Notes under the pieces: model-generated
What the model was told of the DNA's origin: nothing
The model's input: the letters and a program-made list of their open reading frames with translations, nothing else
Database searches by the model: none
Source: Halogranum rubrum
GTDB taxonomy: Archaea; Halobacteriota; Halobacteria; Halobacteriales; Haloferacaceae
Length of the DNA stretch: 64,000 nt
Assembly (NCBI RefSeq): GCF_900114455.1
Contig: NZ_FOTC01000001.1
Span: 1,017,058 to 1,081,057 of the forward strand
Direction of reading: 5' to 3'
Shown here: positions 43,072-44,654 of the stretch, piece by piece
Position numbering within the stretch: position 1 is the stretch's first letter
Layout of the letters: every line of letters begins with the position of its first letter
Position numbers and translations under genes: made by a program

Positions 43072-43317
43072 ATGACGCTGCTCGACGTCTCGGATGGCTT
43101 CGACGTCCACGACTATCGGACGAAACTCAAACTCGTGAAACAAGACCGCGGGACGATGTATCTGGAGAACCGCGAGTCATGTCGCTGTCCCGCCTGCGAG
43201 CGCCCGTTCGACCGACTGTTCGTCTCCGAGAAGCGCGACGTGACGTTCAACAGCGCCCCCAACGGCCCAATCTGTCTCGTCCGTACCGACGACCAGTTAC
43301 TCGTTCTCACGCACTGA
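43072..43317 (+). CDS. DUF7385-like small zinc protein
   Basis: An 81-residue protein with a zinc-knuckle-like CRCPACERPFDRLFVSEKR in the middle and the ending GPICLVRTDDQLLVLTH. The start FDVHDYRTKLKLVKQD and the overall order match a small haloarchaeal family sometimes named flagella cluster protein (DUF7385, from memory). No archaellum genes are near, so that name may not describe its role here. Confidence 0.75.
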   Translation: MTLLDVSDGFDVHDYRTKLKLVKQDRGTMYLENRESCRCPACERPFDRLFVSEKRDVTFNSAPNGPICLVRTDDQLLVLTH

Positions 43318-43421
43318 ATCCGCGCGCCGCTGTTTCCCTCTCGTCTGTATCCGCTTTCTCCTCCCTCGTCGACGTCCACACTCACCGAGAAGTACACGAG
43401 TTTGATGTTTCATCGTCTTGA

Positions 43422-43472
43422 TTCGAATACGATTCGAATATCTGTATAATATTCTTCGAATATTGTTCGAAT
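43422..43472. promoter_or_regulatory. Four phased TTCGAAT sites before the CAP-domain gene
   Basis: The heptamer TTCGAAT, a near palindrome, occurs at 43422, 43433, 43455 and 43466. Spacings of 11, 22 and 11 bases put all sites on one face of the helix. A TATA-like TATAATATTC lies between the pairs at 43445-43454. This looks like a binding array for a regulator, most likely of the gene at 43572. Confidence 0.6.
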
Positions 43473-43571
43473 GTCTAGCGAAAGTCTCTTTCGAGACACA
43501 AACATTATGTACAGACATTCTCGATGTGCAGTCAGTGTGCCCCACCGTGGGCCGCACAGTTGCCTGAGACC

Positions 43572-44654
43572 ATGACACGCACACACTACACGAGACGGAC
43601 CTTCGTCCGAACGGCCACGGCGCTCTCCGGCGTCGCCGGCCTCTCCTCGCTCGCGGCCGCAGACCACGACGAGTCGGTCGTCGTCGTCGACGGCACCGCG
43701 AGCGACGACCTGCAGTGGTACAATCTCGCCGTCACCGGCGAAATCACCGGTAAGAGCAACGCATCGGGCGCATCGACGAACGACAGCGACTGGCTGGAAT
43801 CCACCGCCGTCGCCGGCGGGTACGTCCGCGGCGGCAAGGACGCCTACAGCTTCACGGGTGACCTCGTCGGCTTCTGGTCTGACGAGAGCCCTGCAGTCTA
43901 CGTCGACGGGTCGCGCGTCGACCCCGACCCGCTCCGGATGATTTCGATTCGGAAGGACGACCCCGCCTCCAGCGTCAGTTACGAACTGACGACGAGTGGC
44001 CTCCTGTCGAGTAGCGCCGCCAACGGCGCGAGCATCGACGGCGGCGACCGAGTTTACGGCGGCCGAGCGACTGGCTACGTCGTGAACGGCACCGACAGCT
44101 ACGCGTTTTCCGGCGACATCGAAGACCTGACCGCCGACGGCGGCCTCTCCGTCGTCGTCGACGGCGAGACGGTCGGCTACGAGGGCGAGTGGCCGCCGCA
44201 GTCCGGTGGCAGCGACGGAAGCGGGAGCGACCCGGACTCCTTCGTCGCCCGACTCGAACGGCGCATCCACGAGAAGGTCAACGCTCGACGTCGTGCCAAC
44301 GGTGTGAGCGAACTCGGCTACGACGCCGACCTCGCTGCCGCCGCCCGCGCACACAGTCGGGACATGGTCGACCGGGACTTCTTCTCGCACACCGCACCCG
44401 GCGACGACAGTTTCGCGGACCACTACACCGACGAGGGCGTCTCCTGTCGCGCACTCGGCGAGAACATCCTCTATCGGTCGCTCCGCGACGACGACGTCGA
44501 CATCGTCGCCGAGAACGTCGTCACCCAGTGGATGAACAGTTCGGGCCACCGTGCCAACATCCTCCGTGACAGTTGGCAGGTCGAGGGACTCGGTGCCGTC
44601 GTCTCCGACGACGACCTGCTGTACGTCACCGAAGGGTTCGGTAGCGGCTGCTGA
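43572..44654 (+). CDS. Tat-exported CAP-domain (SCP/PR1) protein
   Basis: A 360-residue secreted protein. The N-terminus has a twin-arginine signal (TRRTFVRTATALSGVAGLSS) without a lipobox. Residues about 35-205 form a repeated beta-rich region: two blocks each end in YSFTGDL-like or YAFSGDI-like strands. After a Gly/Ser linker, the C-terminal CAP domain carries HSRDMVDRDFFSHTAP, GENILYR and WMNSSGHRANIL with the His/Glu cavity residues. Function in archaea is unknown. It probably answers to the TTCGAAT array upstream. Confidence 0.85.
   Translation: MTRTHYTRRTFVRTATALSGVAGLSSLAAADHDESVVVVDGTASDDLQWYNLAVTGEITGKSNASGASTNDSDWLESTAVAGGYVRGGKDAYSFTGDLVGFWSDESPAVYVDGSRVDPDPLRMISIRKDDPASSVSYELTTSGLLSSSAANGASIDGGDRVYGGRATGYVVNGTDSYAFSGDIEDLTADGGLSVVVDGETVGYEGEWPPQSGGSDGSGSDPDSFVARLERRIHEKVNARRRANGVSELGYDADLAAAARAHSRDMVDRDFFSHTAPGDDSFADHYTDEGVSCRALGENILYRSLRDDDVDIVAENVVTQWMNSSGHRANILRDSWQVEGLGAVVSDDDLLYVTEGFGSGC

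Follow-up and report, generated by a model that had tools for sequence, protein, structure and literature searches.

What does a tight cluster of identical heptamers in front of a secreted-protein gene represent: a site at which a regulator docks, or a duplication to which nothing binds? The question is raised by a locus in the 4.57-Mb haloarchaeal genome of a Halogranum species, within a stretch of 64 kb that we analysed as a whole (the window). Four exact copies of TTCGAAT lie there on the forward strand, at positions 43422, 43433, 43455 and 43466, with steps of 11, 22 and 11 bp, as a preliminary description of this DNA had reported. They stand in a 254-bp spacer between two forward-strand genes, in an AT-rich promoter region 100 bp upstream of the second gene. 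The array is real and occurs at one spot only; a gene-control protein may dock on it, but it could as well have arisen by chance duplication, and its significance is ordinary to mildly interesting.

An 11-bp repeat upstream of a CAP-domain gene

The gene upstream of the array (43072–43317, + strand) encodes a DUF7385 protein (PF24110, E = 1.6e-14). The downstream gene (43572–44654, + strand) had been described as encoding a secreted CAP-domain protein, and this identification is borne out: residues 234–350 of its 360-residue product match PF00188 (E = 4.7e-15; 56.9 bits against a cut-off of 21.1), the protein matches PDB 4ifa_A (E = 5e-09), and a Tat-like signal (MTRTHYTRRTFVRT...), judged by eye, is predicted. 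The domain also resembles the YkwD family, yet scores far under the cut-off of that model (80 vs 171 bits). We prefer the start at 43572 because an upstream ATG at 43524 is missing in the ortholog of Halogranum amylolyticum. To our knowledge, little is known of the CAP-domain family in archaea. No regulator gene adjoining the array was recognised when the flanking open reading frames were inspected by eye.

The TTCGAAT repeats are non-random. When the 254-bp intergenic region was shuffled 20,000 times with its dinucleotides preserved, four identical, non-overlapping heptamers within 60 bp never arose (three were reached in 48 of these shuffles); shuffling the AT-rich core 20,000 times gave none either, and the array is the only place in the window where four identical heptamers lie that close together. 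The best and simplest description of it is an imperfect 11-bp tandem repeat in five registers (43420–43474: GATTCGAATAC, GATTCGAATAT, CTGTATAATAT, TCTTCGAATAT and TGTTCGAATGT), four of which contain TTCGAAT. Tandem Repeats Finder reports 4.6 copies of period 11 at 43422–43472, and matches of the array to itself peak at a shift of 11, where 33 of 59 positions agree, and again at 22 (22 of 48). Compared with the consensus GATTCGAATAT, registers 1 to 5 agree at 10, 11, 6, 9 and 8 of 11 positions, the first two differing from each other at a single position; the middle register, CTGTATAATAT, is decayed and has lost TTCGAAT. The four intact units vary solely at positions 1, 2, 10 and 11, leaving a 7-bp core invariant; by simple arithmetic, five changes placed at random would spare seven consecutive positions of an 11-bp unit about 5% of the time. 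At a larger scale, 22-nt blocks spaced 33 apart are 82% identical. A constant period of 11, likeness that reaches beyond the core and restriction to one lineage are the marks of a slippage repeat, and the array bears all three.

TTCGAA reads the same on both strands, so that words next to each other make up two palindromes, each a candidate dimer site. Palindrome I (43421–43439) reads ATTCGAAT-ACG-ATTCGAAT, with arms that are 100% complementary and a centre at 43430; palindrome II (43455–43471) reads TTCGAA-TATTG-TTCGAA and is centred at 43463. They are 17–19 bp long and their centres lie 33 bp apart, or about three helical turns. The four heptamers had been placed on one face of the DNA, which is roughly but not exactly so: at 10.5 bp per turn they fall at 0, 17, 51 and 69 degrees. 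This phasing is weak evidence of cooperative binding, because an 11-bp tandem unit produces it automatically.

The promoter and its counterpart in H. amylolyticum

Some match to the CAP protein is found in 63 of 99 genomes, its own included; among the matches listed, the only other full-length one is that of H. amylolyticum (83%; 78% over the best segment), and the third member of the genus has no full-length ortholog among them. Conservation of the spacer is judged from two aligned Halogranum genomes only. In this alignment the DUF7385 gene is identical at 190 of 246 positions and the start of the CAP gene at 101 of 120, and the intervening DNA is uneven: 31/103 in the upstream spacer, 20/52 in the array (with a further 18/52 gapped), 11/30 between the array and the core promoter, 32/43 in a core block at 43503–43545 and 18/26 in the leader. 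The preliminary description had staked its reading on the spacing being kept in related genomes, and here it fails, the array being missing from the syntenic H. amylolyticum promoter, that of the only close ortholog. The sole part of the array that is fully kept (9/9) is GAATATCTG, at 43436–43444.

The same slot in H. amylolyticum holds TTCTGATAAT twice, an exact 10-nt doublet 13 bp apart. Runs like it arose in 11 of 5,000 shuffles of the H. amylolyticum spacer; the corresponding figure for the run of 10 in the window was 8 of 5,000. In each lineage, then, this position holds a short tandem repeat that chance would seldom produce, spelled in different letters. Because the H. amylolyticum doublet differs and has a 13-bp period, we take this segment of the promoter to turn over quickly. 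A selected binding slot with turnover of its sites and a slippage-prone spacer would each give such a pair of repeats. A more specific scheme, rather unlikely in our judgement, has each Halogranum species rebuilding its own tandem doublet in one slot (TTCGAAT at 11 bp, TTCTGATAAT at 13 bp) for a co-evolving regulator of the CAP gene.

The core promoter itself is conserved. Its block at 43503–43523 (+ strand) lies around TATGTACAGACATTCTCGA here and TATATACAGATATTCTCGA in H. amylolyticum, and a TATA box probably occupies the 5' end of the block. From this conserved block we infer a TATA box near 43504–43510 and a transcription start near 43532, which would put the array at roughly −111 to −60; about 30 bp separate its end from the conserved core promoter downstream. 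The array had been described as lying around a TATA-like sequence, and TGTATAATATT does occur between the two pairs of heptamers, but it is probably not the TATA box of the gene: it is not kept in H. amylolyticum, whereas the TATGTAC/TATATAC of the core block is.

A separate feature of both promoters is an inverted pair formed by GAATATCTGTA (43436–43446) and TACAGACATTC (43510–43520), which brackets the promoter in the two Halogranum orthologs with a gap of 67 nt here vs 64 nt in H. amylolyticum, where the copies lie at 1369–1378 and 1443–1452 of locus L005. Written as GAATATCTG...CAGAYATTC, the pair was found in 2 of 167 genomes, both times at the CAP gene; TACAGAYATTC alone has four sites in the genome, two of them at the CAP-gene promoter. 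Better conserved than the TTCGAAT array, the pair GAATATCTG/CAGAYATTC could be an operator pair.

Control element or neutral duplication

We tentatively favour, with somewhat less than even confidence, a regulatory reading: the array would be a young element, specific to one lineage, that controls the CAP-domain gene from upstream and offers two palindromic sites to a dimeric archaeal regulator. Our grounds are that the four words have stayed intact beside a decayed middle register and that the array lies upstream of a conserved core promoter. Also counted in its favour are the four exact copies that no shuffle equalled, the confinement of changes in the intact units to positions outside the 7-bp core, and the TTCTGATAAT doublet of H. 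amylolyticum, which is expected if binding sites are replaced in a slot that continues to serve. A helix-turn-helix regulator would bind each palindrome (two TTCGAA words 11 bp apart) as a single dimer, and contact between the dimers would bridge the AT-rich middle of the array. Lying some 30 to 80 bp before the TATA box and start site, such an assembly might recruit TFB/TBP and so activate, or form a wrapped, repressing complex. Two dimers on two palindromes fit better than four separate sites: with a full dimer on every TTCGAA word, neighbours would stand a single turn from each other, closer than Lrp dimers, which are reported at two or three turns (PMC2995911). A protein of small size, for instance of the ribbon-helix-helix type, might nevertheless occupy each word. 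Observed are the repeat, its position and its absence from H. amylolyticum; that a protein binds, of which kind, and whether it activates or represses are inferred. Counting against a control element are the missing array in H. amylolyticum, the lack of a second pair locus and of a visible regulon in the genome, the rarity of the pair among the 99 genomes, the absence of an adjoining regulator recognisable by eye and the lack of a matching motif in the literature searched.

Neutral tandem duplication is a serious possibility, nearly as likely as a control element. Replication slippage would have copied an 11-bp stretch, together with a 33-bp block, in an AT-rich spacer and in a single lineage; the period alone would then account for the phasing, and nothing would bind. 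The period of 11 reported by Tandem Repeats Finder, the adjacent units 1 and 2 with 10 and 11 consensus positions, the 82% identity of the 22-nt blocks at spacing 33, the lack of the array in H. amylolyticum and its uniqueness in the genome all agree with this, and a different tandem doublet in H. amylolyticum is what a slippage-prone spacer would be expected to produce. What sits less well with it is that all four 7-bp cores are intact although the middle register is down to 6/11, and that the repeat lies just upstream of the core promoter, not in the half of the spacer farther from it. That TGTATAATATT, in the centre of the array, is a working TATA box, its flanking TTCGAAT words being operators that block TBP/TFB, we consider improbable. 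The word does stand between two TTCGAAT pairs, and repressor sites over the BRE/TATA region are an established archaeal mechanism according to PMC6085418; however, the aligned H. amylolyticum position, CTGCTTCATTC, has no TATA-like word, the well-conserved 43503–43545 block supplies its own in TATGTAC/TATATAC, and a start directed from the array would give a leader roughly 100 nt long. Least probable, and very much so, is a structural nucleic-acid element, either cruciform DNA or an RNA hairpin that ends or stabilises the DUF7385 transcript. As single-stranded DNA the array folds better than its shuffles (z −2.65, 5 of 200 as good), but any array of palindromes would fold likewise. The RNA fold does not stand out (z −1.73, equalled by 15 of 200 shuffles), and the H. 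amylolyticum region is unstructured (z −0.33); a search for terminator-like sites found none, and an Rfam search gave no match.

Comparison with known systems bears on the control element that we favour. In haloarchaeal gas-vesicle promoters, the upstream activating sequence of GvpE, which adjoins the BRE on its upstream side, is made up of two octamers roughly one turn from each other. Its sequence is different, and the array comprises four words, the last of which ends about 30 bp before the TATA-like block. The met boxes of MetJ, an example of ribbon-helix-helix arrays, are short palindromic tandem boxes, bound cooperatively, that abut at 8 bp, as against the period of 11 here. Archaeal Lrp regulators such as Ss-LrpB bind clusters of semi-palindromes that share one face of the DNA at distances of two or three turns (PMC2995911), and the two palindromes with centres at 43430 and 43463, 33 bp apart, resemble such operators and agree with the spacing rule for multi-site Lrp operators (at least two semi-palindromes, two or three turns between centres); Lrp sites are usually degenerate, however, and the four words of the array are identical. 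As to placement, 15 of 18 sites of CdrS, a haloarchaeal RHH regulator, lie 41–110 nt upstream of the transcription start (PMC8406309), so that an array at about −111 to −60, as placed above, would fall within the range where regulators can sit.

A close parallel is the promoter of sptA (halolysin) of Natrinema sp. J7-2, where mutagenesis defined semi-palindromes upstream of the TATA box and an upstream element with direct repeats (PMC6085418). Both genes encode a haloarchaeal Tat-secreted protein (predicted to be so here), and both promoters have semi-palindromes upstream of TATA, GAAATN7ATTTC in sptA and GAATAT-N7-ATATTC at 43436–43454 here, as well as direct repeats. The sptA elements were proved by mutagenesis, however, and ours is known from its sequence; the letters differ, and sptA has no TTCGAA array, 'ttcg' being absent from the text on sptA (PMC6085418). 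The sptA promoter shows that a compound element of this kind can drive genes for haloarchaeal secreted proteins (PMC6085418). If the array is regulatory, it would be a compact haloarchaeal operator born by tandem duplication, with the sister species as a natural control, and would give a handle on the control of a secreted CAP-domain protein. If it is neutral, it serves as a caution that helical phasing follows from an 11-bp unit and is by itself no proof of cooperative binding.

Occurrence beyond the locus

A genome-wide search for TTCGAAT pairs at 11-base spacing had been suggested as a check. TTCGAAT-N4-TTCGAAT occurs in its own genome at the array locus only, and the looser ATTCGAAT-N1-30-TTCGAA nowhere in that genome besides this locus; two other genomes among 99 contain TTCGAAT-N4-TTCGAAT. 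Single ATTCGAAT sites number 28 in the genome, 23 of them inside open reading frames of at least 80 codons, three outside any and two in the array, a rough placing given that GC-rich genomes make spurious reading frames. With no second pair locus and 23 of the 28 sites in reading frames, no regulon is visible. The broader idea, that helical phasing about a TATA box is conserved and shared across a regulon, is not supported, the array being absent in the ortholog and the pair unique in the genome.

Further afield, TTCGAA triples with gaps of 3–8 were found in none of 170 family genomes, a pattern that the array itself cannot match because its middle gap is larger. Viral contigs gave no match to the full array, and no published motif matching it was found in the literature searched: among the matches listed, no title on TTCGAAT and archaea was evidently about a regulator motif and none on Halogranum and promoters concerned the CAP gene. 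TTCGAAT triples with up to two mismatches occurred in class genomes at 11 bp in 5 of 391, at 13 bp in 2 of 391 and at 14 bp in 1 of 391. This slight excess at 11 bp (5 of 8 matches, about 9% by arithmetic) is suggestive at most, and we do not count it as significant. The 11-bp triples elsewhere lie beside unlike genes, mostly in spacers. The best of them (genome G041, locus L034, 1500–1545) has about four related 11-bp units, ATTCGAATCAC, ATTCGAAACAC, ACTCGAATGAT and GTTTCGATGAG, in the spacer upstream of an open reading frame for a KaiC-like ATPase, with a CheW-like one adjoining (both named by eye).

Two minor observations concern the neighbouring genes. The ATG start of the DUF7385 gene (43072) aligns with an ACG in H. 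amylolyticum (about position 1060 of L005), and the gene may therefore start elsewhere or be decaying in that species. In its N-terminal part, over residues 20–220 or so (window 43650–44230), the CAP protein matches repeated stretches in very long open reading frames of other haloarchaea, for example a 1348-aa frame (G063:C27). The Pfam scan assigned no family to this part, and the matches point to what may be an unnamed repeat domain of secreted proteins.
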